This document shows, piece after piece, positions 1,542-35,022 of a DNA stretch of 38,576 nucleotides. Each line of letters starts with the position of its first letter. Position 1 is the stretch's first letter. The notes beneath the pieces were generated by a model. That model was given only the letters and a program-made list of their open reading frames with translations, did not search any database and was not told the DNA's origin. The position numbers and the translations under genes were made by a program. This DNA comes from Bacilli bacterium (GTDB taxonomy: Bacteria > Bacillota_I > Bacilli_A > RF39 > UBA660): positions 1 through 38,576 of the forward strand of contig JAUNMV010000009.1 in the NCBI GenBank assembly GCA_030531695.1, in the 5' to 3' direction.

Positions 1542-2930
1542 TTGAGAAAAAGAACTTATAAAAAATCAATTATCATTGTCCTTATTTTGTTTATAACTAT
1601 AGGTTTTGCCTATCTTTCAACAACCTTAAATATAAATGGAGCAGTAACATTTAGAGAAAATAATTGGGATATCCATTTTGAAAATCTTACAATAGTTAGT
1701 GAAGATGTAGAATATACATCATTAGAAATAGATAGTAATAATACAACTACAATTAATGCATCTATTAATTTTAAAGAACCTAGTGAAATATTTGAATATA
1801 CAGTAGATGTAGTTAATGCTGGTGGAGTAGATGCCTTATTTGATTCAATCACAAATAATCTAACTTCTACTAATCAAGAGTATATATCAGTAGATGTAAA
1901 ATACAATGATGGATCAACAATTAATCAAAATGATTTATTACGTATGGGTCAATCTAAAAGAATAAGAGTAAAAATAATTTATAACTATGATATAGATGAT
2001 TTACCAACTATATCACAAACAAGTGTGACAACTACTATAAATTATGTAAATGTTAATTTAAGAAACATATCTTATGATAGAAAAGTATGGAATTATGAAT
2101 TTACCGGATATGAACAAACTTTTATAACTCCCAAAACAGGAACTTACAAAGTTGAACTATGGGGAGCAAACGGTGGATCATATGTTAATTATCCATCGGG
2201 AAAAGGAGCATATGTTAGTGGAAATATAGAATTATCAAAAGGAAACAAGTTTTATGTAGTAGTTGGGAATAAGAGCGCATTTACTACTGGTTCTTGTTAT
2301 GAAACTAATAAAAATGCAACATATAATGGTTCATTATCTGGTGGATGTTCTATAGGCGGAGGGGCCACAGATATAAGAATCGTAAAAGGTAATGTTTGGT
2401 ATGATAGTCAATCACTTGCTTCTAGAATTATAGTGGCAGCTGGTGGTGGCGGAGGATTAAATTATTATAATGAAGAAACAGGAGAACCAGGTTCTGGAGG
2501 CGCTGGTGGTGGAATTAGAGGAATAGATGGAATAGGAAAAAATCCTAATTTAACAAATGCATCTCCAGGAAAAGGTGCAACACAAACAAAATACAAATTT
2601 GGATATTTCCCAAATAATTCAACTAGTACTGGTGGCGGAGGATATTACACAGGACAAGGTGGATATGGTGGAAATGCTGGTGGTGGATCATCATTCATAT
2701 CTGGTTATAAAGGATGTATCGCAATAACTGCAGAAGATGATTTAACCCCAATTTGTGTAGAAGAAACAGATCCTGAAGATCAAGATATATCTTGTTCTTA
2801 TCATTACTCAGGATATAGATTTACTAATGGAGTAATGATTCCTGGTAATGAATCAATGATAGATCCAGATGGCACAACAGTAACAGGACATTCTGGTAAT
2901 GGATATGCAAGAATTACATTAATAGATTAA
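1542..2930 (+). CDS. Secreted TasA-like-module protein with glycine-rich C-terminal domain (paralog 1)
   Basis: About 462 residues. A basic start and hydrophobic stretch end in I-G-F-A-Y-L-S-T-T-L, resembling the SipW-type signals of TasA/camelysin proteins. A beta-rich module follows to about residue 175, with F-E-Y-T-V-D-V-V-N-A-G-G-V-D-A-L matching the core of the other paralogs. From about residue 180 there is a glycine-rich domain like the ALK/LTK-type Gly_rich family: T-Y-K-V-E-L-W-G-A, G-G-G-A-T-D-I-R, R-I-I-V-A-A-G-G-G and G-G-G-S-S-F-I-S-G. There is no LPXTG motif. I prefer the TTG start at 1542: GAGGAG (1527-1532) abuts ATG 1533 but is well spaced for TTG 1542, and the protein then begins M-R-K-R like its paralogs. 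It is probably cotranscribed with the next gene. The fold is inferred from motifs; the ligand is unknown. Confidence 0.75.
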   Translation: MRKRTYKKSIIIVLILFITIGFAYLSTTLNINGAVTFRENNWDIHFENLTIVSEDVEYTSLEIDSNNTTTINASINFKEPSEIFEYTVDVVNAGGVDALFDSITNNLTSTNQEYISVDVKYNDGSTINQNDLLRMGQSKRIRVKIIYNYDIDDLPTISQTSVTTTINYVNVNLRNISYDRKVWNYEFTGYEQTFITPKTGTYKVELWGANGGSYVNYPSGKGAYVSGNIELSKGNKFYVVVGNKSAFTTGSCYETNKNATYNGSLSGGCSIGGGATDIRIVKGNVWYDSQSLASRIIVAAGGGGGLNYYNEETGEPGSGGAGGGIRGIDGIGKNPNLTNASPGKGATQTKYKFGYFPNNSTSTGGGGYYTGQGGYGGNAGGGSSFISGYKGCIAITAEDDLTPICVEETDPEDQDISCSYHYSGYRFTNGVMIPGNESMIDPDGTTVTGHSGNGYARITLID

Positions 2931-2944
2931 TCTAAGGAGAAACC

Positions 2945-10534: not shown

Positions 10535-13423
10535 ATGAAAAAAAATAAAGGTTTCACAATGGTTGAACTACTAGCTGTAATTGTAATATTAGGAGTGTTA
10601 TCTGTTATTTCAGTAGCAGCTGTTTTAGGTATAATAACAAAAGCTAAAGAAAAGTATTATAAAACACAAGAAAATAATATGGTTATGGCAGCTCAAAGTT
10701 ATTTAAAAAACAATAATAAAGCTCAACCTAAAGTAAGCGGACAATTAGTTAAAATTAATCTAGAAAAACTAAGTTCTGCTAAATATATTGATAAGGTCGT
10801 TGACTATAAAAAAGAAGAATGTAGTGGAACAGATAGTTATGTAAATGCCTTTAAGTATGAGGATAATATTTACTATACTGCTCATTTAAAATGTCCGAAT
10901 TATGAAACTAATGATTCTATATATACTTCAAATTTATCAATCACTGCTTCATTCTTAGGTGATGATGAACATCTTAATGCTTCAGCAGTAGATATTAATA
11001 TAAAAGATACTAAGACAGGTGATGATATACCTGAAGGAATTGTTTCTTATCAATATAAAATATATTTAGATGGAGAATTAAAATATACATCAGATATATT
11101 TAATGCAAAGAGATCAACAGAAGTAAATAAAAATGTAAAATTAACTCCATATGTACCTGGAGTAGTAAAAATATCAATATCAGCAACTAATATGAATGGT
11201 GCTACTTTAACTAAGTCATTTACAAAATCATATGAAGATAATACTGCACCTACATGTACACCATTAAGTGGAGAATCTACAACATGGAGTGAAGGAACTA
11301 GAATTGTAACAGTAAAATGTGATGATGGAAGTGGATCTGGTTGTAAAAGAGATACTTATACATATGAATTTACTGGAGATGTAAAAGTAGGAAAAATAGC
11401 AGTAGAGGATAAAGCAGGAAATAAAGGTAAATGTAATGTTAATGTATATATTGATAATTATCCTCCTGTAATTAAATTAAGAGCTTATAAGAAAAAAGCT
11501 GGTTCACTTCAAGCTGAAGGTGGAGTAGCTAATAATATAGAAACTAAAAAGAAAGAACCAATTAAAGAATTAACAATTACAAAAGATGCAGTAAATGGTT
11601 GGTTAAATAAGGCAAAGTGGCCAAACGGAGTATACTTTGAATTAGATTATTCTGATATAGATAAAGTTACTAAGATAGAGTGGAATTGGAATGCAGTAAA
11701 TCTTCCATCTACTGCTTCTAACTTATATACAGTAAGTAATATCGCAACACAAACTCCAAATGATGCATCAGGTACTGTAAAAGAAAAAGTAGAATATGAT
11801 GGATATAGATATGGTGAGATAATTGCAACTGATAATCTAAATCATAAGTCAGTTATTAAAGTAAGAGTACCACTTGATAGAATTAAACCTGAAATGCCAA
11901 CAGTTGGTGAATCAACAGACTGGATTAAAGGTACAAGAGATTTCACAATTAATTGTTCTGATACAATAAGCGGATGTCAAACTCCTCCAGGAAATCAAAG
12001 TATAAATACAACTACAAAGACTAAATCATATACTGTAAAAGATAATGCTGGTAATGCTTATACAAAAGATGTAAATGTATTTGTAGATAATACAAAACCA
12101 AAATGTGGTAATATAACAGGTCAAGATACAAAATGGTTAAATACAAGTAGATATATCAAAGTAAAATGTAGTGATGATGAAAGTAAATGTTCAAAAGATG
12201 AATTTGATAAAACATTTAATACAACTATTCAAGTTGGACAAATAACAATATCTGATAAAGTAGGAAATACAAGAGACTGTGATGTTAATGCTTATATTGA
12301 TAAAGAGTTACCAGTAGTAACTACAACAGCTAAGAATGCTTCATCTAATAACTTAACAATTAACTTATCAGATAATATTGAATTAGCAGGATATGCCATA
12401 ACAACAACAGAAACAGAACCATCTAGTTGGACATCTTTAACAGGCAAGACATTTACTAAAACATTTACTAAAGATACAGGAACATATTATGTATATGTAA
12501 AAGATAAAGCAGGAAATGTATCACATAAATCACAATATGTATTAAAAATGGATCCACCAACTTGTTCAATTTCACTAACAGGTACAAAGAGTGGAGACTG
12601 GTATACATCAGAAGTAAAAGTAAAGATGACTACATCAGGTACAATAGCTCAAAAAGGATTAGATACAACACAAAATTCTGTAAATAATAAAACAGAAGTT
12701 ACACATACATCAAGTACTTCTTCAGTGACATATTATGGATATGTAAAAAATGCTGCAGGTGATAATTCATGTAGTAAAACATTTAAAGTAGATAGAGGTC
12801 CATCTAAGCCAAGTATTAATCTAAATGGTTATGGTAGTGGAAACTGGACTAATCAAGACGTAACAATATCAGCATCTACTTCATCACACTTTGATATCAA
12901 AACATGGCAATATTCACATGATAAGAATGGATGGAGTACAGGTATCCAAGATTGGGGAGCTCATTATGGTACTGGTCATAAATCAATTAGTTCAAAGATA
13001 ACATGGGATGGACAATGGACATTCTATGTAAGAGCAATAGATGAAAATGGTATAGCTTCACCTGCATCAGATTCATTTGTATTGAGAGTGGATAAAACTC
13101 CTCCAAGATATGTTTCAGTAGCTCCATATTGTGGAAACTACTGGTGCTTAGAGCCTAGACATCATGCTTACGTACATTTATATTTCCAAGATACAGGATC
13201 TGGAATAGCTAGAAGATATGTTGAATGGTGGGATAGTGATTACGTATATAATCATTTAACAAGTGATGCTAATTTCGGAGGAAGTACAGAAGTTCTAGAA
13301 GATGTGCTAGATGCAGTAGGAACTTGGCAAGCATTTGAACATAAACTATGGGATGTTGCAGGAAACTATAATGAATGGATAGATCACAATGTAGCAATTA
13401 ACTGTGGAACATATCCATGTTAA
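10535..13423 (+). CDS. Very large type IV prepilin-like protein with Ig-like repeats
   Basis: 962 residues. It begins with a prepilin-peptidase signal (K-G-F-T-M-V-E-L-L-A-V-I) and a hydrophobic helix to about residue 36, the hallmark of type IV pilins and pseudopilins, which are normally only 100-250 residues. After about 200 residues there are Ig-like beta repeats from about 235 onward, marked by T-x-W-x-x-G/N-[ST]-R, paired Cys and the signature D-[KN]-[AV]-G-N (V-E-D-K-A-G-N, V-K-D-N-A-G-N, I-S-D-K-V-G-N, V-K-D-K-A-G-N), closing with W-D-V-A-G-N. It ends in a Trp- and Tyr-rich region with several Cys. It is most likely held in the membrane or a pilus by the N-terminus, with the repeats outside the cell. 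No prepilin peptidase or pilus ATPase is in the window. Adhesion is plausible but unproven. Confidence 0.82.
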   Translation: MKKNKGFTMVELLAVIVILGVLSVISVAAVLGIITKAKEKYYKTQENNMVMAAQSYLKNNNKAQPKVSGQLVKINLEKLSSAKYIDKVVDYKKEECSGTDSYVNAFKYEDNIYYTAHLKCPNYETNDSIYTSNLSITASFLGDDEHLNASAVDINIKDTKTGDDIPEGIVSYQYKIYLDGELKYTSDIFNAKRSTEVNKNVKLTPYVPGVVKISISATNMNGATLTKSFTKSYEDNTAPTCTPLSGESTTWSEGTRIVTVKCDDGSGSGCKRDTYTYEFTGDVKVGKIAVEDKAGNKGKCNVNVYIDNYPPVIKLRAYKKKAGSLQAEGGVANNIETKKKEPIKELTITKDAVNGWLNKAKWPNGVYFELDYSDIDKVTKIEWNWNAVNLPSTASNLYTVSNIATQTPNDASGTVKEKVEYDGYRYGEIIATDNLNHKSVIKVRVPLDRIKPEMPTVGESTDWIKGTRDFTINCSDTISGCQTPPGNQSINTTTKTKSYTVKDNAGNAYTKDVNVFVDNTKPKCGNITGQDTKWLNTSRYIKVKCSDDESKCSKDEFDKTFNTTIQVGQITISDKVGNTRDCDVNAYIDKELPVVTTTAKNASSNNLTINLSDNIELAGYAITTTETEPSSWTSLTGKTFTKTFTKDTGTYYVYVKDKAGNVSHKSQYVLKMDPPTCSISLTGTKSGDWYTSEVKVKMTTSGTIAQKGLDTTQNSVNNKTEVTHTSSTSSVTYYGYVKNAAGDNSCSKTFKVDRGPSKPSINLNGYGSGNWTNQDVTISASTSSHFDIKTWQYSHDKNGWSTGIQDWGAHYGTGHKSISSKITWDGQWTFYVRAIDENGIASPASDSFVLRVDKTPPRYVSVAPYCGNYWCLEPRHHAYVHLYFQDTGSGIARRYVEWWDSDYVYNHLTSDANFGGSTEVLEDVLDAVGTWQAFEHKLWDVAGNYNEWIDHNVAINCGTYPC

Positions 13424-18238: not shown

Positions 18239-18763
18239 ATGAAAAAGATAAATATTAGAAATTTAATAATTACATTATTATGTATTACAGTAATTATATT
18301 AGCTGTAGGATATAGTGTTCTTGCTATAAAGTTAGATGCTTATAAGAATAGAAAAGATTCTTTTGAAGTGTTAATTACAGATGTATCAGAAGAAGGATCT
18401 GTTAAAGAAGGTAAAGAAGAACCAGAATGTAATACGAGTATTGATGATGATGGTCATACTCTTAATATGAGCTTTATCTTAAATAATCCAGGAGATGAAA
18501 TAGCAGAACAAGTAACTATTAAGAACACTGGTACATTAAAAGCTAAAATAGTAGATATAATATCTACTCCAGACTATATTAATGATAAATCAGTAATTAA
18601 TTCAATTAAACCAGTTACAATAACTAAGACAGATATATCAGGTAAAATTTTAGAACCAGATGAAGAAGTAACATTTAAAGTACTAGCGGTTTATAATAAC
18701 CCATCATCAGGTACCAAAAAAATACCTTATAAGTTATCATTAATAACTTCATCAGTTGAATAA
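18239..18763 (+). CDS. Minimal TasA-like secreted or anchored protein
   Basis: 174 residues with AGGAGG ribosome site, 12 nt after the PBP gene. A hydrophobic N-terminal segment ends V-G-Y-S-V-L, comparable to I-G-F-A-Y-L in the nine large paralogs. Then come D-S-F-E-V-L-I-T-D-V and L-N-N-P-G-D-E, then V-T-I-K-N-T-G-T-L-K-A-K-I, which line up with their K-P-G-D and V-N-x-G-x-x-D-A-M core. There is no C-terminal variable domain, so this is a bare N-terminal module. It closes the division transcription unit where mraY would normally come. Homology to TasA/camelysin is inferred from motif order only. Confidence 0.65.
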   Translation: MKKINIRNLIITLLCITVIILAVGYSVLAIKLDAYKNRKDSFEVLITDVSEEGSVKEGKEEPECNTSIDDDGHTLNMSFILNNPGDEIAEQVTIKNTGTLKAKIVDIISTPDYINDKSVINSIKPVTITKTDISGKILEPDEEVTFKVLAVYNNPSSGTKKIPYKLSLITSSVE

Positions 18764-18838: not shown

Positions 18839-20581
18839 ATGGAAGAGAATAAAGATAAGTTGGTTTTTAGTAGTATTAGAAGTGAAAAAAAAGTACAAGA
18901 AACTCCTCCAAGAGAGGCAGTAAATAAAGCATTTCATGATGAATATATTAGACAAACACAAGAAATACCAGTACAACAAATAAAACAAGCCCTACAACAA
19001 AGTGAACAAGTAAAAGTGCAACCACAACCAGTACAACAACCAGTAAGACCACAAGTGGTAAATAATGTTGAGCAACCAGTACAACAACCTAAACCAGTAC
19101 AACAACAGGTAGTACAACAACCAGTAACTCCACAACCACAACAAAATACTACACAAGAAAACAAAAAAGTAATAGAAAAACCTAAAAAAGTAGTAAAAGA
19201 ACCAAAAGTAAAACAAAGACATCGAATGAAGAAAAGTGTAAAAGTAGGCTTAATAGTATTTATAATCACTTTCACAACATTCTTTTCTACTTTAAGAATA
19301 ATGTCTTACTTTGATAACCCTAAAGTTATCACAAAAAGATCATTATTATATTTAGGAGAAGAATTTAAAAATATAATTAATCTTAGTGATGAACCTACAG
19401 TAATAGGTAATAACTTTAATATACAAACTACTATTACTACAAACTTAGATAGCCAAGTATTTAAAGATGAAGCACTAACAGATCCAACTATGTTAGAAAA
19501 CCTATACTTAATAAATAATTTAAATGCTAGTAAAACAACACTATCAATAATACATAATACTAAAGATAAAAAATTCTTCTATAATAGAAAAACTATTAAA
19601 AATGATAAAGTAATCATAAATGATAAATACTTAATAGATAATTCTACTGAATATTATTTTGTACAAGACTTTTTAGACAATTACGTTAATGACGGAAATA
19701 ATACATACTTTGAAACTATTAAAGATGATGTAGATGCAATGGATAATATTAATTATTTATATAAATTAATATTAGAAACAATTCCAGAGTGTATTGATAA
19801 AGATTATTATAATGTAACTGATACTACAACATATATAAATAATAAGACTGAGAGTGTTCAAAAAGTATCTCTAAAATTAGATAATATAAAAATAAGAAAT
19901 ATTGCGAATAAAGTATTAGTAAAACTAAAAAAAGATAAGAGAGCTTTTAATATACTTAATGGAGTAATAGATGATTTTAGTAATTATAGATTTACATCTA
20001 AATATAAATTTATTGATACTAATGAAACTATAACTATTAATTTATATACTAAAGGTACTCTAAATAAGACAAAGAAATATGAATTAGTAAGAATGGGTCC
20101 TAACGGATCTTATGGACTTACTTATGAAGTTAATAATAAAAATATTACTTTATTAAAAGATAATAAAGTAAGATATTACTTAAAATATAAATTAAGTAAT
20201 AATAATACTAATATAAAAATAGAAGTATATAATAAAACTGAAAAGAAATTAGGTAATATAGTATTTGATAATACTGAAACAAGAAAACACTTAACTATAG
20301 AAATAGAAGATGAAGTATATAATACATCTTTAGATATTAATTATAAGATTACTGATAAAAAGAAAACTACTTATAATAGTACAACAAAATCTATAATTAA
20401 TATTAAGAAAGACGGTAAGAACTACTTAAGTGGAACAGTAAATGTAGAAACTAAAGTAAATAATAAAGTTACTATAAATGAAGAAGTAGATGATGTTACA
20501 TTTAGTAGTGAAATTACAGATGAGAAAAAAGAAGAATTAAACAATCTATTTAAAACTAGATTAAAAAAAGAAATTAATTAG
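18839..20581 (+). CDS. Single-pass membrane protein with P/Q-rich cytoplasmic region, unknown function
   Basis: 580 residues, not recognised. Residues 1-40 are charged. Residues about 44-105 are almost all Pro, Gln and Val in irregular P-V-Q-Q repeats, followed by a Lys-rich stretch to about 133. A membrane helix lies at about 135-155. The remaining 420 residues are Lys/Asn/Thr-rich and probably outside the cell, with alternating beta-like segments. There is no signal cleavage site and no sorting motif. The low-complexity part suggests a flexible cytoplasmic arm for protein contacts. Its stop overlaps the beginning of the next gene's ribosome-site region, so it is the first gene of a four-gene operon. 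Confidence 0.75.
   Translation: MEENKDKLVFSSIRSEKKVQETPPREAVNKAFHDEYIRQTQEIPVQQIKQALQQSEQVKVQPQPVQQPVRPQVVNNVEQPVQQPKPVQQQVVQQPVTPQPQQNTTQENKKVIEKPKKVVKEPKVKQRHRMKKSVKVGLIVFIITFTTFFSTLRIMSYFDNPKVITKRSLLYLGEEFKNIINLSDEPTVIGNNFNIQTTITTNLDSQVFKDEALTDPTMLENLYLINNLNASKTTLSIIHNTKDKKFFYNRKTIKNDKVIINDKYLIDNSTEYYFVQDFLDNYVNDGNNTYFETIKDDVDAMDNINYLYKLILETIPECIDKDYYNVTDTTTYINNKTESVQKVSLKLDNIKIRNIANKVLVKLKKDKRAFNILNGVIDDFSNYRFTSKYKFIDTNETITINLYTKGTLNKTKKYELVRMGPNGSYGLTYEVNNKNITLLKDNKVRYYLKYKLSNNNTNIKIEVYNKTEKKLGNIVFDNTETRKHLTIEIEDEVYNTSLDINYKITDKKKTTYNSTTKSIINIKKDGKNYLSGTVNVETKVNNKVTINEEVDDVTFSSEITDEKKEELNNLFKTRLKKEIN
19014..19145 (+). repeat. Low-complexity P-V-Q-Q coding repeat
   Basis: Irregular copies of CCAGTACAACAA encode the Pro/Gln/Val-rich part of the preceding protein. 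Copy number may vary between strains by slippage. Cys-rich frames on the opposite strand are a by-product of this composition. Confidence 0.75.
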
Positions 20582-20592
20582 TGGTGATTATT

Positions 20593-21225
20593 ATGAAAAA
20601 AGATGAATTAAGAGATAAGGATTTCGATCCATTTATAGATAAGAAAAAGAAGAGTGTAAAAGATATTACATTAGAGGATGATGAAGAAAAAGAAGAAAAA
20701 CCTAAAAAGAAAAGAAAAAGTAAAGTAAAAAAAGAAAGAATAATTACTTTTACTAAATTAGACTCAGTAGATACATTATTAATAGTAATATTTGTATGTA
20801 TGTTAGTTTTAACAATCTTTTTAGGATTCAAAGTTGCTAAAGCTAAGAAAGAATTTAAAGATTATAAAAGAGCTAGTATAGTAGTACCTGTACTCGCTAA
20901 AGATACAAATAATAATATAAGTGTAGATATCTCTAATATGAAAAAAGGAGATAGTAAAGAATATACATTTAAAGTATCTAATAATAAGGATAATAATATA
21001 AATCCAGATGAAGTAGTATATGCTCTACAATTAGTAAATACTGATTCAGTAAGTGTAGAAGTATATAAGAATAATAGTAAAGATAATATTCTACCTGGAA
21101 GTAATATCATCTTAGATAATAAATTAAAGAAAGATGAGGAACAAATAGATGTCTTCACATTAAAGATTAAAGCAGTTAAAAAGACATCAGATAAAGAATT
21201 AATCACTATTAAAATAATAAGTTAA
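20593..21225 (+). CDS. Single-pass membrane protein with small beta-rich outer domain
   Basis: About 210 residues. The first 55 are highly charged (Lys/Asp/Glu), a membrane helix lies at about 59-81, and the outer domain contains M-K-K-G-D-S-K-E-Y-T-F-K-V-S-N-N, similar in pattern to the K-P-G-D...F-x-V-D core of the TasA-like paralogs. ATG 20593 is preferred to GTG 20581 because it follows GGTGAT. Like the gene before it, the protein has a long charged cytoplasmic head and an extracellular tail, suggesting a shared complex. Family unknown. Confidence 0.7.
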   Translation: MKKDELRDKDFDPFIDKKKKSVKDITLEDDEEKEEKPKKKRKSKVKKERIITFTKLDSVDTLLIVIFVCMLVLTIFLGFKVAKAKKEFKDYKRASIVVPVLAKDTNNNISVDISNMKKGDSKEYTFKVSNNKDNNINPDEVVYALQLVNTDSVSVEVYKNNSKDNILPGSNIILDNKLKKDEEQIDVFTLKIKAVKKTSDKELITIKIIS

Positions 21226-25083: not shown

Positions 25084-25108
25084 AAAAGACCAATTATGGT
25101 CTTTTTCT
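25084..25108 (+). terminator. Rho-independent terminator after the PrsW gene
   Basis: AAAAGACCA (25084-25092) pairs with TGGTCTTTT (25097-25105), loop ATTA, then more T. Confidence 0.88.
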
Positions 25109-25136
25109 TGTTTAGAAAAATAAAATACTATATAAT
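25108..25136 (+). promoter_or_regulatory. Promoter of the LamG pair
   Basis: TTGTTT (25108-25113) and TATAAT (25131-25136), spacer 17 nt. The -35 begins at the end of the preceding terminator's T tract. Confidence 0.65.
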
Positions 25137-25158: not shown

Positions 25159-27006
25159 ATGAGAAGAAGAAAACATAAGTATTTAATTATCATATTAATA
25201 TTACTATTCATATCAGTAGGATTCGCATATCTTACTAGTACTCTAGATATAGTAGGTATTGGTCATTTAAAGAAAGCATCATGGAATATATACTTTGATA
25301 ATGTAAATATAGTAGAAGGAAATAACTTATCAAGTAATCCTCCAACTACATCTAATCATAATACTACTAGTGTAAGTTATACAGTTAATTTTACTAAACC
25401 AGGAGATACATATAAATTCTATATAGATATAGTTAATAATGGTACTATAGACGCAATGGTAAGTTTAATAGATGAAAATACTATTCTAACTTCAAATCAA
25501 TCTAAATATGCATCATACTCTATATCTTATATAGATGGTACTCCCATACAAGAAAATAACTTCTTAGGAAGACATTCAAAAGAAACACTACAAATAATAA
25601 TTAAGTATAAAAAAGATGTCACATCATCAGATTTGCCAACTTCTCAAATGAATTTATCATTTAATCTTAGATTAACATATAAACAAGCAAAGAATGCAGA
25701 TAATCGTAGAGGAGAATCTACACTAATAACAGATTTATCAGGTAATAATAATCATGGAACACTATATGGTGGAAGAATAAATGCCGATGGAACAGTCTAT
25801 CTAGATGGAGTAGATGACTATATTAATTGCGGTTTAGAAAACTATGACTTTGGTAATTCAATAAGTTATGTATTAAGAATGAAAACAAGTTCAGTAAGTA
25901 ATATGGCACTAATAGCGTTATTTGGGAACTGGAGAGGTGCCGGTGGAGGTTTATATTTTAATAATCAAGGTGCTACACCAAAATACTCATTTCAGATATA
26001 TGGAAAAGACATCAGAAAATATACAAATTTTGTATCAAATACATCAGTAGAACTAGATACATGGAAAACTGTTGTTGGAACATACGATGGTAACTCTTTA
26101 AAAATGTATATAAATGGTACTCAAATACCTAATAATTCTTCTGTTAATAATATGGAGTTAATTGATTCATTAAAAATTAGTGCCAATCCTATAACAATAG
26201 GAGCAATGATTACAAGTGAAAATGCAGTAGTAGAATTTTCTAATATAACAATATCAGATGCATTAGTCTTTGATAGAGCATTAACTTCAGAAGAAATAGC
26301 AACTGATTATGCATCTACAATCAATCCAACAAATACATCTAATATGTTATTAAGATATCAATTCAAAAATACTATAGTAAAAGATTTATCAGGTAATGGA
26401 AATGATGGGACAATATATAGAGATCCAAAAATTAATAGTGATGGTACATTAACAACAGATGGAATAGATGATTATGTCGATTGCGGTTTGAACAATTATA
26501 CTTTTGGTAGTAGCATATCGTTAATAGCAAGAGTAAAGTTTCATTCACTAAATGGAACAGATCCAGCAATATTAGCTAATTTTCAGAATGCAGGATTAGG
26601 CTTATATTTAAAAAATCAATATATATCTTTTACTACTCATAAATCCTCATGGGTTAGATATGTATCAACCATTAAGCCAGAATTAAATAAATGGTATACA
26701 ATCGTTGGTACATACAATGGATCAGTAATGAAATTGTATATTAATGGAAAAGAGTCTCTACTAACAGGTACAGCAAATGTATATCAAGTGTCAAGAACTG
26801 GTAACTTAGAGAATTCAAAACAATTTTTAATAGGTGCAGATCCAAATAATGATGGTAGTAATGGAGAAGATTTCAGCAATATAACAGTATCAGATATACT
26901 TATTTTTGACAGAGCAGTCACAAAAGATGAAGTTATAAATGATTATTCTAAAATAATAAGTCCATCTAATAGAGAAGACTTACTACTTTACTATCACTTT
27001 GGATAA
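25159..27006 (+). CDS. TasA-like-module surface protein with two LamG-like domains (paralog 3)
   Basis: About 615 residues. A basic start, a hydrophobic signal-like segment ending I-S-V-G-F-A-Y-L-T-S-T-L, then the shared module to about residue 185 with K-P-G-D-T-Y-K-F-Y-I-D-I-V-N-N-G and an end at Y-K-Q-A. Two concanavalin/LamG-like domains follow (about 190-400 and 405-615). Each has D-L-S-G-N-x-N-x-G, D-G-x-D-D-Y-[IV]-[ND]-C-G, V-G-T-Y-[DN]-G and F-D-R-A. LamG-like domains often bind glycans or proteins. There is no sorting motif. I chose ATG 25159: AGGAG (25146-25150) is 8 nt before it but only 2 nt before ATG 25153, and the next paralog starts the same way. Confidence 0.8.
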   Translation: MRRRKHKYLIIILILLFISVGFAYLTSTLDIVGIGHLKKASWNIYFDNVNIVEGNNLSSNPPTTSNHNTTSVSYTVNFTKPGDTYKFYIDIVNNGTIDAMVSLIDENTILTSNQSKYASYSISYIDGTPIQENNFLGRHSKETLQIIIKYKKDVTSSDLPTSQMNLSFNLRLTYKQAKNADNRRGESTLITDLSGNNNHGTLYGGRINADGTVYLDGVDDYINCGLENYDFGNSISYVLRMKTSSVSNMALIALFGNWRGAGGGLYFNNQGATPKYSFQIYGKDIRKYTNFVSNTSVELDTWKTVVGTYDGNSLKMYINGTQIPNNSSVNNMELIDSLKISANPITIGAMITSENAVVEFSNITISDALVFDRALTSEEIATDYASTINPTNTSNMLLRYQFKNTIVKDLSGNGNDGTIYRDPKINSDGTLTTDGIDDYVDCGLNNYTFGSSISLIARVKFHSLNGTDPAILANFQNAGLGLYLKNQYISFTTHKSSWVRYVSTIKPELNKWYTIVGTYNGSVMKLYINGKESLLTGTANVYQVSRTGNLENSKQFLIGADPNNDGSNGEDFSNITVSDILIFDRAVTKDEVINDYSKIISPSNREDLLLYYHFG

Positions 27007-27023
27007 TAAGAAAGGAGAGTACT

Positions 27024-28850
27024 ATGAGAAGAAGAAAATATAAGTATTTAATTATCATATTAATATTACTATTCATATCAGTAGGATTCGCATATCTTAC
27101 TAGTACTCTAGATATAGTAGGTATAGGTCATCTAAAGAAAGCTTCATGGAAAATATACTTTGATAATGTAAATATAGTAGAAGGAGAAAACTTATCAAGT
27201 AATCCTCCAACTACCTCTAATCATAATACTACTAGTGTAAGTTATACAGTTAATCTTACTAAACCTGGAGATACATATAAATTCTATATAGATATAGTAA
27301 ATAATGGTACTATAGATGCAATGGTAAGTTTAATAGATGAAAATACTATTCTAACTTCAGATCAATCTAAATATGCATCATACTTTATATCCTATATTGA
27401 TGGAACTCCAATACAAGAAAATAACTTCTTAGGAAGACATTCAAAAGAAACACTACAAATAATAATTAAGTATAAAAAAGATGTCACATCATCAGATTTG
27501 CCAACTTCTCAAATGAATTTATCATTTAATCTTAGATTAACATATAGACAAGCAAAAAATGCAGATTCACGTACAGGAGAATCTACAATTATTACAGATT
27601 TATCAGGTAACGGAAATGATGGGATAATGTATGGTGGAAGAGTAAATGCCGATGGAACAGTCTACCTAGATGGAGTAGATGATTATATCAATTGTGGCTT
27701 AGAAAACTATGACTTTGGAGATGGTGCAACACTAGTAGCAAAAGTAAAAGTCGAGAAAGATGTAACAAGTGCTAGATATATTCTTAATAAACATGAAGGA
27801 GGAGGCTTAGGTATATCACTACATTCAAATAATAATGAAACATATGCGTTATCATCATTTCATATAAATGGTTCTTATCAAACAAATGGATGGAGAAGAA
27901 TCATTATTAATTCATGGTATATATTAGTCGCAACATATGATGGTAATTTATTAAAATTTTATTCAAATGGTACTCAATTCGATAATGGAACAAGCGTAGA
28001 TGGTCCTATTACAACTGTATCAGTACCATTATTAATTGGTGCAAATCCCAAATTGGATGGTACAGCAGAGGGATTTACAAATATAACAATATCAGATGCA
28101 TTGATATTTGATAGAGCTTTAACTGCAGAAGAAATCGCAAGTAACTATGCATCTACAATCAATCCAACAAATACATCTAATATGTTATTAAGATATCAAT
28201 TTAAAAATACTACAGTAAAAGATTTATCAGGTAATGGAAATGATGGAACAATATATGGAGATCCAAAAATTAATAGTGATGGTACTTTAACAACAGATGG
28301 AATAGATGATTATGTTGATTGCGGACTAGTAAATTACAACTTTGGAAATTCAATTACATTAATCGCTAGAGTAAAAGTAAATGAACTAACATCACACAAT
28401 AACTTAGTTATAGGAAACTGGGAAAATGGAGGTGGAGGAATATTTTACGATACCACAAGCCTTCAGTTTGATTATACTAATAGTGCCACATCTGATTATG
28501 TTAGATATTTGACAAGTTTCACTCCAACATTAAACACTTGGTATACAATAGTTGGAACATATGATGGTCAAAAATATAAATTATATCAAAACGGAAAAGA
28601 AGTACCATATAGAAATACTGAAAATAACTATGAAAAAGAAACTACTGGAAATTTAATATCTAATTATAAATTCTTTTTAGCTGCTAATCCTAGCTACAAT
28701 GGTAATCATACAAACTTTTCAAAAATGACATATTCAGATATTTTAATATTTGATAGAGCCGTCACAAAAGATGAAGTTATAAATGATTATTCTAAAATAA
28801 TAAGTCCATCTAATAGAGAAGACTTACTACTTTATTATCATTTTGGATAG
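27024..28850 (+). CDS. TasA-like-module surface protein with two LamG-like domains (paralog 4)
   Basis: 608 residues, 17 nt after the previous gene with ribosome site AAAGGAG. The N-terminal 185 residues are nearly the same as in the previous protein, including a 136-bp stretch identical in DNA. Two LamG-like domains follow. The first differs strongly from its counterpart in its middle part (E-G-G-G-L-G-I-S-L-H), while the frame residues D-L-S-G-N-G-N-D-G and F-D-R-A-L-T are kept. The last 16 residues of both proteins are identical in sequence. The pair shares a promoter and ends at a terminator. Surface location is likely; ligands are unknown. Confidence 0.8.
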   Translation: MRRRKYKYLIIILILLFISVGFAYLTSTLDIVGIGHLKKASWKIYFDNVNIVEGENLSSNPPTTSNHNTTSVSYTVNLTKPGDTYKFYIDIVNNGTIDAMVSLIDENTILTSDQSKYASYFISYIDGTPIQENNFLGRHSKETLQIIIKYKKDVTSSDLPTSQMNLSFNLRLTYRQAKNADSRTGESTIITDLSGNGNDGIMYGGRVNADGTVYLDGVDDYINCGLENYDFGDGATLVAKVKVEKDVTSARYILNKHEGGGLGISLHSNNNETYALSSFHINGSYQTNGWRRIIINSWYILVATYDGNLLKFYSNGTQFDNGTSVDGPITTVSVPLLIGANPKLDGTAEGFTNITISDALIFDRALTAEEIASNYASTINPTNTSNMLLRYQFKNTTVKDLSGNGNDGTIYGDPKINSDGTLTTDGIDDYVDCGLVNYNFGNSITLIARVKVNELTSHNNLVIGNWENGGGGIFYDTTSLQFDYTNSATSDYVRYLTSFTPTLNTWYTIVGTYDGQKYKLYQNGKEVPYRNTENNYEKETTGNLISNYKFFLAANPSYNGNHTNFSKMTYSDILIFDRAVTKDEVINDYSKIISPSNREDLLLYYHFG

Positions 28851-28880
28851 AACTTAACTTGAAGTTCTATCCTTTTTTCT
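28845..28880 (+). terminator. Terminator of the LamG pair, overlapping the next promoter
   Basis: A perfect 11-bp stem GGATAGAACTT (28845-28855) and AAGTTCTATCC (28862-28872), followed by six T. The stem contains the stop codon of the gene, and its loop and 3' arm contain the -35 box of the next promoter. Confidence 0.92.
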
Positions 28881-28887
28881 TTATAAT
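28859..28887 (+). promoter_or_regulatory. Promoter of the InlB-type trio
   Basis: TTGAAG (28859-28864) and TATAAT (28882-28887), spacer 17 nt. The -35 lies in the terminator hairpin. The same arrangement recurs at 32559-32587. Confidence 0.65.
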
Positions 28888-28909
28888 TAATAGTGTAGGA
28901 GAAAGTACT

Positions 28910-30091
28910 ATGAAAAGAAATAATAAAAGTAAATATCTTATAATTGCTTTAGTACTAGTTATTAGTATAGGTTTCGCATTTTTATCTGCTAGATTAGATA
29001 TAAATGGCCTTGCTAATATTAAAAAGATTAAATGGAATATCTATTTTGATAATGTTCAAAATAATTTTGGTCAAGAGTTTGAAGTAAGTACTCCAACTAC
29101 TACAGGTACTGATACAACACAAATATACTTTGAAGTAGCATTAGAAGATCCAGGAGATAGTTATTCATTTGATGTAGATATTGTTAATGATGGAACAATA
29201 GATGCTGTTTATAAGTTAACTTATGATTCGACTACATATGATACAGTTAATCCTGATTTATACATATTTGATGTTAGATATAAAGATGGTATTGAAATAA
29301 CAGAAAATGATTTACTAGCTAAAAATAGTAGAGAAACAATAACAGTTACAGTTACATATAATAAAGATATTGATATTTCATTATTACCTTCAGAAGATAT
29401 ATCAGCAAATTACTATTTAGTACTTAATTATGAACAAGCTAATGTTAATGGAAATACAGCAGTAGAAAGAGAACACAGATATACAATTACATATGATCTA
29501 GATGGAGGAGTTAATAATCCAAATAATCCATCTACATACACAGATAGATCATCAACATTTACATTACAAAATCCAACAAAAGCAGGTTATACATTTACAG
29601 GATGGACAATAGGTAAGAATTTATTTATTTCATACGCGCTTAGTGGAGAAGGTGAAGGAATTAACTATATAAGAAATAATGATCAAAGTATTTCTTTTAG
29701 TGGGACACCACAATATGGTTGGGCTAATATAACAAATTCAAGCGGTCATAAATTATATCCAGGATACTATACAATGTCTATTACAGAACCTAAAATATTC
29801 CACTTATGTATAAAGGGAACTTATCCTGACACAACAATAGTAGAAAGTTGTATTACGAAAAATATATCAACATCTCAAACAATTATGATTAGTCAAAACT
29901 ACACATATTACTTTTTTCTTGCAGGACTAACTCCAAATGAATATTATGATGATTCAGTATATATTCAAGTAGAAGAGGGAAGAAAAGCTACTTCATATGA
30001 ACCATATATATCAACTCCAACAACAAACATAGTAATTAATTCAGGATCGGATGGAAATAGAACATATAAAGCAAATTGGGTAGCTAACTAA
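28910..30091 (+). CDS. TasA-like-module surface protein with InlB-type repeat split by a phage-tail-like domain (paralog 5)
   Basis: About 393 residues. Signal-like segment S-I-G-F-A-F-L-S-A; shared module with D-P-G-D-S-Y-S-F-D-V-D-I-V-N-D-G ending Y-E-Q-A. Then an InlB_B/Listeria-Bacteroides-type repeat starts (I-T-Y-D-L-D-G-G and G-Y-T-F-T-G-W). It is interrupted after the Trp by about 120 residues beginning G-K-N-L-F and ending Q-V-E-E-G-R-K-A-T-S-Y-E-P-Y, a frame known from carbohydrate-binding-like domains of phage tail proteins. The repeat then resumes with N-R-T-Y-K-A-N-W at the C-terminus. ATG 28910 follows TAGGAGA; the in-frame ATG at 28859 lies in the terminator. It is the first gene of a three-gene unit. 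Confidence 0.78.
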   Translation: MKRNNKSKYLIIALVLVISIGFAFLSARLDINGLANIKKIKWNIYFDNVQNNFGQEFEVSTPTTTGTDTTQIYFEVALEDPGDSYSFDVDIVNDGTIDAVYKLTYDSTTYDTVNPDLYIFDVRYKDGIEITENDLLAKNSRETITVTVTYNKDIDISLLPSEDISANYYLVLNYEQANVNGNTAVEREHRYTITYDLDGGVNNPNNPSTYTDRSSTFTLQNPTKAGYTFTGWTIGKNLFISYALSGEGEGINYIRNNDQSISFSGTPQYGWANITNSSGHKLYPGYYTMSITEPKIFHLCIKGTYPDTTIVESCITKNISTSQTIMISQNYTYYFFLAGLTPNEYYDDSVYIQVEEGRKATSYEPYISTPTTNIVINSGSDGNRTYKANWVAN

Positions 30092-30113
30092 TAATTACAA
30101 AGTAGGTGATTAG

Positions 30114-31256
30114 ATGAGAAAAAATAAAAAATTATTAATTGTATTTCTATTAGTATTAATAAGTATAGGTTTTGCCTATCTAACATCTACTTTAGAAATT
30201 AATGGTATTACAGGTATTGGTAGAAATACATGGAATATTTATTTTGATAACGTAGTAAATTTATCTGGAGCAAATCTTGCAACTACCGCTCCAACAACAT
30301 CTGGTACAAATACGAAGAGTATAAGTTACTCAGTTAATTTAAATAAGCCTGGAGATGCTTATAGATTCAATGTAGATATAGTAAATGGTGGTACACTTGA
30401 TGCTATGATTACAGTATTAACAAACACTACATTAACTGCAGAACAAGCTAAATATGTAGAGTATTCTGTTACTTATGCAGATGAAACACCATTAGTAACT
30501 AAAAATAAATTATCTAAAAACTCAAGTGATAAATTATTAGTAAGTGTTATCTATAAAGATAATATTACTGAAGATGATATGCTAGAAGAAGATATAAATA
30601 TAGATATAGATTTATCTATTAAATATGAACAAGCTGATTCAACAGCTCAAGCAAGATCAACAGGTCAATTAAATGTTAAGTTTGATTATAATTATAATAT
30701 GATAAGTGACTTTGATGATAAAAGTTCAACAACAGTACCATTTGGAACATACTATATACAAAATAATAAAATAACATTTACATCTTCAAGAACTGATGGA
30801 TATGCAATATTATCAAAAGAGGTAGATATAGTCAAAAATAATATGTATTATTTTTATTGCGACTCTGATGGAACATGGGGCCTAAATAATGCTGGTGACA
30901 CTGTACAAATCTTCTTTATTAGTAAGCAACAAGAACAATCTGGGCAAATTGGCAATTATGCAATTATGATAAATGATGGGGAATGGTATTTCAATGGCCC
31001 CTATACTGATACATATAAGTTAAGAGTAGATAGTAATCAAAACGGTGCTACTCATTCATTTTGGAATTTATTTTTAACAGAGTATACCCAATCTAATTTT
31101 AATGTAGGAGCTAACTTAGTATTACCAACAGCACCTACAAGAGATGGATATACATTTGATGGATGGTATACTGAAAGAGTTGGTGGTACACAAGTAACTA
31201 CAAGCACTAAAGTTAATTATTCAACTACATATTATGCACATTGGACGGAGGCTTGA
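30114..31256 (+). CDS. TasA-like-module surface protein with InlB-type repeat (paralog 6)
   Basis: 380 residues, start after GTAGGTGAT. Signal-like segment S-I-G-F-A-Y-L-T-S-T-L-E-I-N-G, shared module with N-K-P-G-D-A-Y-R-F-N-V-D-I-V-N-G-G ending Y-E-Q-A. A first InlB-like strand (L-N-V-K-F-D-Y-N-Y-N) is followed by about 120 residues of unknown beta-rich sequence, then the rest of the repeat: L-P-T-A-P-T-R-D-G-Y-T-F-D-G-W-Y-T, T-Q-V and Y-Y-A-H-W at the end. The inserted part is not clearly a known family. It stops with TGA, and the next gene's ribosome site GGAGG lies within its last codons. Confidence 0.78.
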   Translation: MRKNKKLLIVFLLVLISIGFAYLTSTLEINGITGIGRNTWNIYFDNVVNLSGANLATTAPTTSGTNTKSISYSVNLNKPGDAYRFNVDIVNGGTLDAMITVLTNTTLTAEQAKYVEYSVTYADETPLVTKNKLSKNSSDKLLVSVIYKDNITEDDMLEEDINIDIDLSIKYEQADSTAQARSTGQLNVKFDYNYNMISDFDDKSSTTVPFGTYYIQNNKITFTSSRTDGYAILSKEVDIVKNNMYYFYCDSDGTWGLNNAGDTVQIFFISKQQEQSGQIGNYAIMINDGEWYFNGPYTDTYKLRVDSNQNGATHSFWNLFLTEYTQSNFNVGANLVLPTAPTRDGYTFDGWYTERVGGTQVTTSTKVNYSTTYYAHWTEA

Positions 31257-31260
31257 TAAA

Positions 31261-32550
31261 ATGACACATAAACCTAAAAATAAAAGATTAATAACTATAG
31301 CAATATTACTATTATTAATTAGTATAGGTTTTGCTTATTTAACAGCCACTCTAGAAATGGATGGTTTAGCCGGTGTAAAAGGAAATACTTGGAAAATATA
31401 TTTTGATAATGTAGAAATATATAAAGGATCTAATCTTGCCACAACAACACCAACTACTACAGGAACAAATACAACTGATTTAGAGTATAGTGTTACCTTA
31501 AATAAACCTGGTGATGTCTATAAATTCTATGTTGATATAGTAAATGCCGGTAGTTTAGATGCTATGATTAATATTGTTAAAAAAACAGATTTAACAGATG
31601 CACAAAAGAAATATTTAAATTATACAGTTACTTATGCAGATGAAACTCCAATAGAACAATTAAATCTATTGGCTAAGAAAAATGGAGATAATCCTACAAG
31701 AGATACAATAGTAGTAACAATAGAATATAAAAAAGATGTAGCAGAAGAAGATTTACCATCAACAGCTGATGTAACAATAAAAGAAAAACTACATCTAGAT
31801 TATAGACAAGCGAATAGTAGTGCTCAAGCAAGAGTTACAACACAACCAACCATAACGTATGATTGGAATTATAATTATGTAAAAAATGGAGATTTCTCTG
31901 ATGGGTTAGATTACTGGAGTGCTCAAAATGGGTCAACAATTAACATTGATAATACTAAAACCTATAATGGGAAACCTAGTTTACACATTCTAACTAGTTC
32001 ATCAGACTATAGCGGTGTAGGAAATGATTATCAAAGCTTTACAATCAATCAATACCCATATGGTTATGATTACTTATATCACGCTTGCTTTTATAAGGAT
32101 TCAGATGATACAAATGGTGGAGTAACACAACCAATAAGAATGTACATAGGACATATAACTAGTCAAGGTAATCAACACTATATTGGATTTGGGGCTGCAA
32201 ACAATACAGTAAGTTTAATTAAGGATGCCATGAAAGAAAAAGAATGGAGTTGCTTATCGAAAATTTTCAATCTTCCAGATAATGGATTAGATAATAAAAC
32301 AAATAAATCATTAAGAATAGATAATCATATACAAGGAACAGTAAATAATTATTGGGTGGCTGATGTACAGTTAAGAATAGTAAATCAAGTACAATATAAC
32401 TATAACTCTCAAATAACTACATTCCCAACTAATCCTACAAGAGATGGATATACATTTGCAGGATGGTATACTGATCCTTATGGTGGAACTCAAGTAAATA
32501 CATCTCAAGTAGTAAGAGAATCACAAATATTATATGCACATTGGAGTTAG
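31261..32550 (+). CDS. TasA-like-module surface protein with InlB-type repeat and CBM-like insert (paralog 7)
   Basis: About 429 residues. Signal-like S-I-G-F-A-Y-L-T-A-T-L, shared module with N-K-P-G-D-V-Y-K-F-Y-V-D-I-V-N-A-G ending Y-R-Q-A. Then I-T-Y-D-W-N-Y-N, an insert starting V-K-N-G-D-F-S-D-G-L-D-Y-W (typical start of a CBM_4_9-type carbohydrate-binding fold), and the rest of an InlB-type repeat: N-P-T-R-D-G-Y-T-F-A-G-W-Y-T-D, ending L-Y-A-H-W-S. ATG 31261 is used because GGAGG (31247-31251) precedes it. The gap to the previous stop is 4 nt, so translation is probably coupled. Confidence 0.78.
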   Translation: MTHKPKNKRLITIAILLLLISIGFAYLTATLEMDGLAGVKGNTWKIYFDNVEIYKGSNLATTTPTTTGTNTTDLEYSVTLNKPGDVYKFYVDIVNAGSLDAMINIVKKTDLTDAQKKYLNYTVTYADETPIEQLNLLAKKNGDNPTRDTIVVTIEYKKDVAEEDLPSTADVTIKEKLHLDYRQANSSAQARVTTQPTITYDWNYNYVKNGDFSDGLDYWSAQNGSTINIDNTKTYNGKPSLHILTSSSDYSGVGNDYQSFTINQYPYGYDYLYHACFYKDSDDTNGGVTQPIRMYIGHITSQGNQHYIGFGAANNTVSLIKDAMKEKEWSCLSKIFNLPDNGLDNKTNKSLRIDNHIQGTVNNYWVADVQLRIVNQVQYNYNSQITTFPTNPTRDGYTFAGWYTDPYGGTQVNTSQVVRESQILYAHWS

Positions 32551-32580
32551 AACTTTTCTTGAAGTTCTAATTCTTTTTTT
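32547..32580 (+). terminator. Terminator of the InlB-type trio, overlapping the next promoter
   Basis: TTAGAACTT (32547-32555) pairs with AAGTTCTAA (32562-32570), followed by TTC and seven T. It is close in sequence to the terminator at 28845-28880 and again includes the stop codon. Confidence 0.9.
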
Positions 32581-32587
32581 ATATAAT
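32559..32587 (+). promoter_or_regulatory. Promoter of the DUF6273-like pair
   Basis: TTGAAG (32559-32564) and TATAAT (32582-32587), spacer 17 nt. The -35 is inside the terminator hairpin, as at 28859. Confidence 0.65.
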
Positions 32588-32608
32588 TGTTATAGTAGGA
32601 GAGTACTT

Positions 32609-33814
32609 ATGAAAAGAAGAGAAAATAATAAAAAAATTATTATATTACTACTAGTATTCTTAATAAGTGTAGGCTTTGCTTACTTATCAAGTACTCTTAA
32701 TATTACTGGTTTAACTAGAGTAATGGGTAATAATTGGAATATATATTTTGATAATATACAGTATGTACGAGGACAAGACTTTGAAATAACTGCTCCAACT
32801 ACAACAGGTACTACAACCACAAGTGTAAGTTATGAAGTATTCTTACCATCTCCTGGAGATGTATATAAATTTAATATAGATATAGTAAATGCTGGTAGCC
32901 TAGATGCAATGGTAAAAGTAGTTACTGATACGGAGTTGACTGACGCTCAAAAGAAATATGCCTCATACTATGTAACATATAGTGATGGAATAAGTTGTGA
33001 TGATTATCAACTATTACCTAAGAATAGTACAGATACATTATCAGTAATGGTAGCTTATAACAGAGATATATTAGAAGAAGATTTACCAGATACAGATAAA
33101 TCAATAACAGTAACATTTCATATAGAATTTGAACAAGCAACATCTAAAGCTACAGCAAGAAACCATATAACAGTAGTTAATAGAGCAAATAATAATACAT
33201 TAAGTGTAGGAGACGAAATAGCTTTAGGAACCGAACATTTTATAATCATGAATATAAATAATGAAAAAACAACATTACTAACAAAATATGATCTTAATAG
33301 TGGCCCTAGTACTTTAAGTGATATGACTGCAGGATTACAAATGACACAAAATAGAGATTCATCTTCAGGAATGCCTGTATCATCCTTTTCAACTTATAGA
33401 TATTGGATTCAAAACAATCAATTAAAAAGTAAGTATGGAACATCATATCCAGCATATGTAGTTGATGAGGAATATAATCAAGAAACAGGAAATTATTTTA
33501 GTACCTATTATTATGTAGAACAATATATAGGACTACTAAGAGATAGAAATATGATGATTGAAAAAGGAAGATTAATGAGTTTAGAGGATGCTATATCTTT
33601 AGGGTGTACACCAACAAATGATGGAAAATATTCCTGCTCATCAGGTCCATCTTTTTTATGGTTTCCAAATTCATATTGGCTAGGTACAGCTATAGATAAT
33701 AATAATGTTTATAGATTCTATAGAAATGATAGAACTCTTGAAACATTATCTTATGATAAATCTTGGGGTGGTTGTACAAGACCAGTAATAGAAATACCTT
33801 CATTAGATATATAA
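32609..33814 (+). CDS. TasA-like-module surface protein with DUF6273-like C-terminus (paralog 8)
   Basis: About 401 residues. Signal-like S-V-G-F-A-Y-L-S-S-T-L, shared module with S-P-G-D-V-Y-K-F-N-I-D-I-V-N-A-G ending F-E-Q-A. The C-terminal part (about 195-401) starts with V-G-D-E-I-A-L-G-T-E-H-F and ends Y-W-L-G-T-A...R-P-V-I-E-I-P, the frame of DUF6273-type domains. These resemble C-type-lectin-like folds in layout, but I cannot confirm the fold. The coding DNA at 32681-33229 is identical to that of the next gene. ATG 32609 follows TAGGAGA. There is no wall-sorting motif. Confidence 0.75.
   Translation: MKRRENNKKIIILLLVFLISVGFAYLSSTLNITGLTRVMGNNWNIYFDNIQYVRGQDFEITAPTTTGTTTTSVSYEVFLPSPGDVYKFNIDIVNAGSLDAMVKVVTDTELTDAQKKYASYYVTYSDGISCDDYQLLPKNSTDTLSVMVAYNRDILEEDLPDTDKSITVTFHIEFEQATSKATARNHITVVNRANNNTLSVGDEIALGTEHFIIMNINNEKTTLLTKYDLNSGPSTLSDMTAGLQMTQNRDSSSGMPVSSFSTYRYWIQNNQLKSKYGTSYPAYVVDEEYNQETGNYFSTYYYVEQYIGLLRDRNMMIEKGRLMSLEDAISLGCTPTNDGKYSCSSGPSFLWFPNSYWLGTAIDNNNVYRFYRNDRTLETLSYDKSWGGCTRPVIEIPSLDI
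32681..33229 (+). repeat. 549-bp direct repeat, copy 1
   Basis: Identical base for base, as far as I can compare by eye, to 33898-34446. It codes the shared N-terminal module and the first residues of the DUF6273-like domain. The bases just before (signal peptide) and after (C-terminal domain) differ. Confidence 0.9.
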
Positions 33815-33825
33815 AGGAGATTATT

Positions 33826-35022
33826 ATGAATATTAAGAAAAATAAAAAATATATATTTATAGTTATACTAATATTCTTAATAAGTATTGGTTTTGCATAC
33901 TTATCAAGTACTCTTAATATTACTGGTTTAACTAGAGTAATGGGTAATAATTGGAATATATATTTTGATAATATACAGTATGTACGAGGACAAGACTTTG
34001 AAATAACTGCTCCAACTACAACAGGTACTACAACCACAAGTGTAAGTTATGAAGTATTCTTACCATCTCCTGGAGATGTATATAAATTTAATATAGATAT
34101 AGTAAATGCTGGTAGCCTAGATGCAATGGTAAAAGTAGTTACTGATACGGAGTTGACTGACGCTCAAAAGAAATATGCCTCATACTATGTAACATATAGT
34201 GATGGAATAAGTTGTGATGATTATCAACTATTACCTAAGAATAGTACAGATACATTATCAGTAATGGTAGCTTATAACAGAGATATATTAGAAGAAGATT
34301 TACCAGATACAGATAAATCAATAACAGTAACATTTCATATAGAATTTGAACAAGCAACATCTAAAGCTACAGCAAGAAACCATATAACAGTAGTTAATAG
34401 AGCAAATAATAATACATTAAGTGTAGGAGACGAAATAGCTTTAGGAGATGAGCATTTCTTTATACTAGAAACTAATCCAGAATCATATAAGTTAATGACT
34501 AAGTATCTACTTAATACTGATCAAAAAAAACAATCTGGAGCTAGTCCAACAAGAGTAAAATTTTCAAATATAGTTTATTGGTATAACAATAATTCATTTG
34601 GATCATACGGAGTAAATTATTTAAATAACGTAATATATGATAGAAGTAAATCAGCTGAAACAGGAGATAATTATAGTGTGGTTTATCATGTTAATAATTA
34701 TTTAAACACTCTAGATTCTATAGATATGAAATATATAGAAGGGCGTTTACTAACAATAATGGAAGCTTATAAGTACGGATGTGTATATGTATCAGGTGGT
34801 GGAAATTGTTCTGCAGTTCCAGATAACCTAAAATTTATCTATTATAATAATGGTGGAAATTATTGGTTAGGATCATTTTCTGGATCTCTAACTAGCCCTG
34901 GATACGTATGGAATTTAGGTGGTAGTACAACATATTCATATTTAGGAGGAACTGATACATCACTAGAAAACAGAACTCAGTATATCCGTCCAGTAATAGA
35001 AATACCTGCACTTGACATATAG
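33826..35022 (+). CDS. TasA-like-module surface protein with DUF6273-like C-terminus (paralog 9)
   Basis: About 398 residues, 11 nt after the previous gene, with ribosome site AAGGAGA. The first 24 residues differ from the preceding paralog in many places (M-N-I-K-K-N-K-K-Y), residues from A-Y-L-S-S-T-L to D-E-I-A-L-G are identical, and then the proteins diverge again while keeping the frame: E-H-F, T-G-[ND]-[YN], E-[KG]-R-L, Y-W-L-G-[TS] and R-P-V-I-E-I-P. The end is A-L-D-I against S-L-D-I. This mosaic suggests recombination between the two genes. It is the last member of the array. I see no hairpin terminator directly after it. Confidence 0.75.
   Translation: MNIKKNKKYIFIVILIFLISIGFAYLSSTLNITGLTRVMGNNWNIYFDNIQYVRGQDFEITAPTTTGTTTTSVSYEVFLPSPGDVYKFNIDIVNAGSLDAMVKVVTDTELTDAQKKYASYYVTYSDGISCDDYQLLPKNSTDTLSVMVAYNRDILEEDLPDTDKSITVTFHIEFEQATSKATARNHITVVNRANNNTLSVGDEIALGDEHFFILETNPESYKLMTKYLLNTDQKKQSGASPTRVKFSNIVYWYNNNSFGSYGVNYLNNVIYDRSKSAETGDNYSVVYHVNNYLNTLDSIDMKYIEGRLLTIMEAYKYGCVYVSGGGNCSAVPDNLKFIYYNNGGNYWLGSFSGSLTSPGYVWNLGGSTTYSYLGGTDTSLENRTQYIRPVIEIPALDI
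33898..34446 (+). repeat. 549-bp direct repeat, copy 2
   Basis: Second copy of 32681-33229, 1217 bp downstream, same orientation and reading frame. Confidence 0.9.

Follow-up and report, generated by a model that had tools for sequence, protein, structure and literature searches.

A run of seven consecutive genes in the window (the 38,576-nucleotide stretch of DNA analyzed here) encodes proteins that join one module, which sequence comparison supports as a remote homologue of TasA/camelysin, to three classes of C-terminal domain. We favor, with a probability of roughly 0.55, the reading that these proteins are SipW-processed subunits that would insert into donor-strand-type fibers and there display exchangeable binding domains. 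In an uncultured bacterium with ~40 surface proteins built on one TasA/SipW-type module that is probably fiber-forming, this region has the appearance of one locus in a kit that spans the genome and presents many binding tips. TasA-type fibers are known as single-domain matrix proteins, and the present system is best judged as a TasA/AbpX-type module made into a multi-copy carrier of exchangeable tips.

The seven array genes occupy 25159–35022 on the forward strand, and each opens with a signal-like hydrophobic stretch followed by the ~180-residue module. They are given below with the further members found in the window.

25159–27006, + strand: gene 1, 615 aa; signal-like segment and module (aa 1–183), then two LamG domains
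27024–28850, + strand: gene 2, 608 aa; module, then two LamG domains
28910–30091, + strand: gene 3, 393 aa; module, InlB-type repeat (PF09479 positions 1–44), then insert
30114–31256, + strand: gene 4, 380 aa; module, insert, then InlB-type repeat (PF09479 positions 13–65)
31261–32550, + strand: gene 5, 429 aa; module, insert, then InlB-type repeat (PF09479 positions 13–65)
32609–33814, + strand: gene 6, 401 aa; module, then DUF6273-like C-terminus
33826–35022, + strand: gene 7, 398 aa; module, then DUF6273-like C-terminus
1533–2930, + strand: eighth module gene in the window, with a glycine-rich C-terminus (PF12810, E 6e-45)
2945–4432, + strand: ninth module gene in the window, with a glycine-rich C-terminus (PF12810, E 3e-41)
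18239–18763, + strand: very distant stand-alone relative of the module, 174 aa (E 2e-5)

The common architecture had been proposed by a sequence-only reading, and it is borne out here: the open reading frames are confirmed, and BLASTP between array proteins of different units gave E values of ~1e-25 to 1e-50, far beyond chance. The same reading had called the module constant, which holds within the LamG pair and the DUF6273 pair but not across units, where identity is ~38–54%. The module of gene 2 is 33–95% identical to the other modules of the window (nine members), and the residues invariant in all nine (gene 2 numbering) include G21-F22-A23, W42, F46, P81, D90, N93, D98 and A99.

The proposed C-terminal classes are confirmed by family profiles for genes 1–5. 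LamG (PF13385, curated cut-off 27.6 bits) was matched by gene 1 (111.8 bits, E 4e-32) and gene 2 (104.5 bits, E 8e-30), and PF09479 (cut-off 27) by genes 3, 4 and 5 with 38.0, 45.6 and 50.6 bits (E 2e-9 to 2e-13), all of these being partial matches in which the family is split by the insert and the missing part lies on its other side. For genes 6 and 7, the label DUF6273-like has an indirect basis: they share a C-terminal domain that has no Pfam match, the DUF6273 (PF19789) cut-off not being reached, but this C-terminus matches paralogue L060 (E 7e-25), which matches PF19789 at E 0.0035, under that family's cut-off; another paralogue, L021, scores above it. The structure predicted for this C-terminus from three sequences had a pLDDT of 35, too low for use.

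To place the module, a profile of 71 modules was aligned using hhalign with a TasA/camelysin-side profile, built from eight PF12389-matching proteins of the same bacterial class, that itself finds TasA in the PDB (5of1, E 1e-5; 8aur, E 3e-5). The two profiles matched at 94.7% (E 5.7e-8) over 150 columns, compared with 0.2% for a control alignment of C-termini and 2.7% for DUF5305 proteins. Without the signal regions the match falls to 68% (E 5e-5), so part of the score is owed to the SipW-type signal segment. The best PDB sequence match of the 71-module profile was AbpX (E 1.8e-4), over model positions 26–171 with the N-terminal strand region included. PF12389 has no match in the host's own genome, and it matched seven of the 71 modules weakly (best E 9e-4), with the family cut-off not reached. 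The relation to TasA/camelysin that had been read from the sequence is therefore retained as remote homology, to which the SipW linkage described below also speaks, but not as membership of PF12389. The structure model of the module (pLDDT 81.5) comprises a helix (3–30), a poorly placed stretch (30–37) and a beta-sandwich. Foldseek returned nothing under E 1e-3 with this model, and the fold comparison gave the archaeal thread 7pnb as the best match (Z 7.0), with FimG (6.0) and AbpA 7ueg (5.9) also among the matches, all under the level clear of background. TasA 8aur (Z 5.6, rmsd 3.3 over 116 residues) fell inside the background range, and the PapG pilin domain was also among the weak matches (Z at most 7).

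The genes of SipW-type peptidases (TIGR02228) were located in 17 relatives as well as in the own genome, with proteins of 360–410 residues taken as the long class. A module gene is found no more than 2.5 kb from 21 of the 26 long peptidases (~1.1 expected), compared with 1 of the 33 other TIGR02228 proteins. The usual operon order in the relatives is a stand-alone module (one or two copies), SipW, DUF5305 and a larger module protein, the gene following SipW being DUF5305 in all seven operons tested. Neither the array nor the rest of the window showed a SipW gene, so the array would need service in trans. The only apparently intact SipW near a module gene of the own genome is on contig C69, in a row with another exported protein and a module protein.

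Further SipW-type loci were noted. At L080 (543–1106, G000:C11), a SipW-like protein beside a stand-alone module reads NDNDMSP at the serine position, the catalytic serine being seemingly lost, and glycosyltransferase-like genes follow downstream. A second, different SipW locus of the own genome (L091, 2339–13999, G000:C20) contains two TIGR02228 peptidases, several proteins with STYAWF-type SipW signals and an AAA-type gene. The locus L092 (1156–3983, G000:C10) encodes a small protein with a TasA-like signal, a SipW-type peptidase and DUF5305, with no module match, and shows the same operon plan with another subunit.

The signal segments of the modules end in a strongly conserved site. An aromatic residue (F or Y) occupies position 23 in 70 of the 71 modules, and all 71 have A or S at position 24, G-[FY]-[AS] being kept in 66–71 of the 71 at a signal-peptidase-like position; beyond the site come hydrophobic residues at positions 26, 30 and 32 (in at least 97% of the modules) and then G34, present in 58 of the 71. 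TasA is cut at TWA-AFND, where the tryptophan at P2 hinders ordinary signal peptidase (PMC10269814). Donor-strand exchange builds the fibers of TasA, ABP and ABPx (PMC11952670; for TasA also PMC9674648). On the fiber reading, the seven genes would be locally duplicated members of a large SipW-type exported family, whose precursor segment ending in G-[FY]-[AS] is probably cleaved by a SipW-like signal peptidase with its gene at another place in the genome. The freed N-terminus (L-x-S-x-L-x-I-x-G), in which the hydrophobic alternation fits the needs of a donor strand, would then complete the beta-sandwich of a neighboring module as in TasA and AbpX fibers, and the LamG, InlB-type or DUF6273-like domain would be shown on the fiber or cell surface for binding. 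Signal cleavage, polymerization and a binding role are thus what we infer for the array proteins.

Membrane-anchored adhesins would account for part of the same evidence: the N-terminal helix would stay uncleaved, the module would form a rigid stalk, and the C-terminal domains would bind ligands near the cell, with no fiber. Such anchoring is in keeping with the hydrophobic helix of ~20 residues ahead of the module, with the weak fold match to TasA, and with the seven array tails, in which no C-terminal LPxTG-like sorting signal was found (the genome has five sortases above cut-off). It sits poorly, however, with the conservation of G-[FY]-[AS], with the dedicated SipW-type peptidases that adjoin module genes in the relatives, and with the alternating hydrophobic residues directly after the site, and we regard it as rather unlikely. 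A weak NCBIfam match of the N-terminus to a pilin-like family (E 0.085) could instead point to type IV pilin-like proteins. This is very improbable given the SipW-type peptidase in the relatives' operons, and it was rejected because the conserved, cut-like G-[FY]-[AS] follows the hydrophobic helix rather than preceding it.

Several known systems resemble the proposed fibers in part. TasA/CalY (camelysin, PF12389) with SipW shares remote profile similarity over signal and domain, the PGD...N-x-G core, the SipW-type gene beside stand-alone modules in the relatives, and an aromatic P2 as in TasA. TasA and CalY stand alone, however, whereas here ~40 copies of the module carry exchangeable C-terminal domains; the absence of PF12389 from the own genome, the long N-terminal membrane part of the linked SipW and the DUF5305 partner, with no TapA seen, are further differences. 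Archaeal bundling pili and threads are donor-strand fibers (PMC11952670, PMC9715654) and include the best sequence match (AbpX) and the structural matches 7pnb and 7ueg, but they are archaeal, have single-domain subunits and show low identity to the module, with Z at most 7. The BsaA protein of Clostridium perfringens is likewise a SipW-linked exported protein and forms extracellular filaments (PMC7395162), but its locus is sipW-bsaABCRSD with a two-component system, and no domain-swapped family is reported in that paper. Chaperone-usher pili with the tip adhesins FimH and PapG also combine a pilin domain with a binding domain, and the FimG and PapG pilin domains are among the structural matches; their domain order is nevertheless the reverse of that seen here (module first), no sequence homology was seen, and a chaperone and usher are not expected in a monoderm. 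In a literature search of limited reach, we found no paper describing a TasA-like module with swapped C-termini and none naming the DUF5305 family. If the fiber reading is true, the system would be a sortase-independent, chaperone-usher-free route to adhesive surfaces, in which a matrix scaffold has been turned into a receptor repertoire through the fusion of dozens of binding domains to a TasA/AbpX-type module, and it would show tips being exchanged in nature on a plug that stays constant. The SipW-type peptidase, DUF5305 protein, stand-alone module and decorated modules make up a named partner set for direct testing.

The array is one part of a much larger family, whose scale the sequence-only reading had missed, along with the two module genes at 1533–4432. 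The draft genome (1.46 Mb in 84 contigs, 80.9% complete and 5.6% contaminated) contains 41 module matches, three of them module-only proteins, and its other C-termini include glycine-rich domains, DUF6273-like and InlB domains combined, repeat tails that are beta-helix-like by reading, and tails with a PSPNPxYPQ motif that we take to be the one familiar from phage tail proteins. In the earlier proposal of a modular, domain-swapping fiber or adhesin system, the domain swapping is therefore supported genome-wide, while the fiber is the part that we infer. Module matches were found in 24 of 60 relatives' genomes, all of one family with the host, and in 18 genomes of a class-wide draw of 247, 15 of which belong to the host's family (own genome included). 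On viral contigs, none of 89 pattern matches was a module relative, so there is no sign of a phage origin for the module. Among individual loci of relatives, a module opens a 5479-residue open frame, a giant fused protein (L106, 2–5149, G024:C24), and a collagen-like GPTGPT protein adjoins a glycine-rich module gene (L109, 17044–17928).

The history of the array was approached through synteny and a module tree. The site lies before metal-hydrolase-like, TrmH-type methylase, RimM and TrmD genes (named by eye from their sequences), and relatives carry two LamG-type module genes (G002) or one (G003, its domain scoring just under the LamG cut-off) at the same site. The seven array modules and these three syntenic genes form one clade with a support of 100, so that a single local lineage of the module bears three C-terminal classes; elsewhere in the own genome, distant modules too carry InlB or DUF6273-like tails. 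From the syntenic genes and the single clade, the LamG unit probably occupied the site first, and the InlB and DUF6273-like classes were probably joined later to the local lineage. The array would have grown as the module already on site was duplicated in tandem, C-termini were exchanged and module DNA underwent gene conversion.

The class boundaries within the array coincide with putative regulatory elements, as follows.

25108–25136, + strand: promoter-like TTGTTT-17-TATAAT of unit 1; weak −35, under the scan threshold and read by eye
28845–28872, + strand: terminator-like hairpin at the LamG/InlB boundary; overlaps the next site
28859–28887, + strand: promoter-like TTGAAG-17-TATAAT of unit 2
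32543–32574, + strand: terminator-like hairpin at the InlB/DUF6273 boundary; overlaps the next site
32559–32587, + strand: promoter-like TTGAAG-17-TATAAT of unit 3

Terminators had been reported at 28845 and 32547, and both are recovered (the latter now at 32543) exactly where the class changes, among seven terminator-like sites found versus 2.0 ± 1.8 in shuffles. The two boundary elements, each a terminator with a promoter, are closely alike, and the boundary pattern AGAACTTNNCTTGAAGTTCT was absent from the other loci compared, a subset of the genome. Two terminators among six gaps would mark both class boundaries by chance in 1 of 15 cases, so the coincidence alone is no strong evidence of design. 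The further proposal of a partner set for each unit, with one binding class per set, was not established, as tandem duplication also yields same-class neighbors. We think it probable that one class per transcription unit is a mere by-product of such duplication and that the units are not functional partner sets: tandem pairs elsewhere in the genome (C15, C16, C17 and C45) also share a class, and the class labels track the module tree, with 14 changes versus 38.6 in shuffles. The similar element at each boundary is the point on the other side, since it may allow separate control of the units.

Module DNA bears the marks of recombination, as in genes 6 and 7:

32681–33229, + strand: 549-bp segment of gene 6, identical to 33898–34446 (+) in gene 7; module and junction, with divergent DNA on both sides

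After this segment identity drops to ~50%. Between genes 1 and 2, the module DNA is 95.8% identical, and blocks of 93–100% alternate with LamG cores of 32–65%; for the genes on contigs C33 and C7, identity is 99.6% between the modules and 64% between the C-termini. Four paralogue pairs, including two whose members lie on different contigs, have module DNA that is 95–100% identical and C-termini that are 61–73% identical. The lack of any synonymous change over ~180 codons beside a saturated tail requires recombination, protein-level selection alone being insufficient. An assembly artefact could mimic the 549-bp identity within one contig, as short reads resolve long exact repeats poorly and strain mixing is possible in a contaminated, fragmented metagenome draft, but this is improbable, because the same pattern across contigs C33 and C7 is less easily mimicked and a milder form is seen in genes 1 and 2. 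The contrast between module DNA and C-termini, together with LamG cores that have diverged between conserved linkers, would also suit an antigenic or receptor variation device, in which tips diversify by recombination in constant module DNA and only some copies are used at once. We find this doubtful: the seven genes look intact and have three promoter-like sites, unlike one expression site with silent cassettes; no match to a reverse transcriptase (PF00078) of a diversity-generating retroelement was found in the 81%-complete draft; and ordinary gene conversion yields the same pattern. Returning to the fiber reading, an extended form of it can be put forward tentatively, as possible but with the balance against it: a combinatorial kit, run by one bacterium with a small genome, in which one SipW-processed donor-strand plug is fused to ~40 exchangeable binding tips, constant module DNA acts as a handle for recombination, so that the plugs stay compatible as the tips diversify, and locus-wise units such as this array add tip classes.

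Two other proteins of the window are of separate note. That encoded at 20581–21225 (214 aa) has a single membrane helix and an end that is Ig-like by eye, with no BLASTP match to other module proteins. At 10535–13423, a 962-aa protein joins a prepilin-like N-terminus (KGFTMVELLAVIVILGVLS) to a long repeat region and is unusually large for a pilin-like protein.
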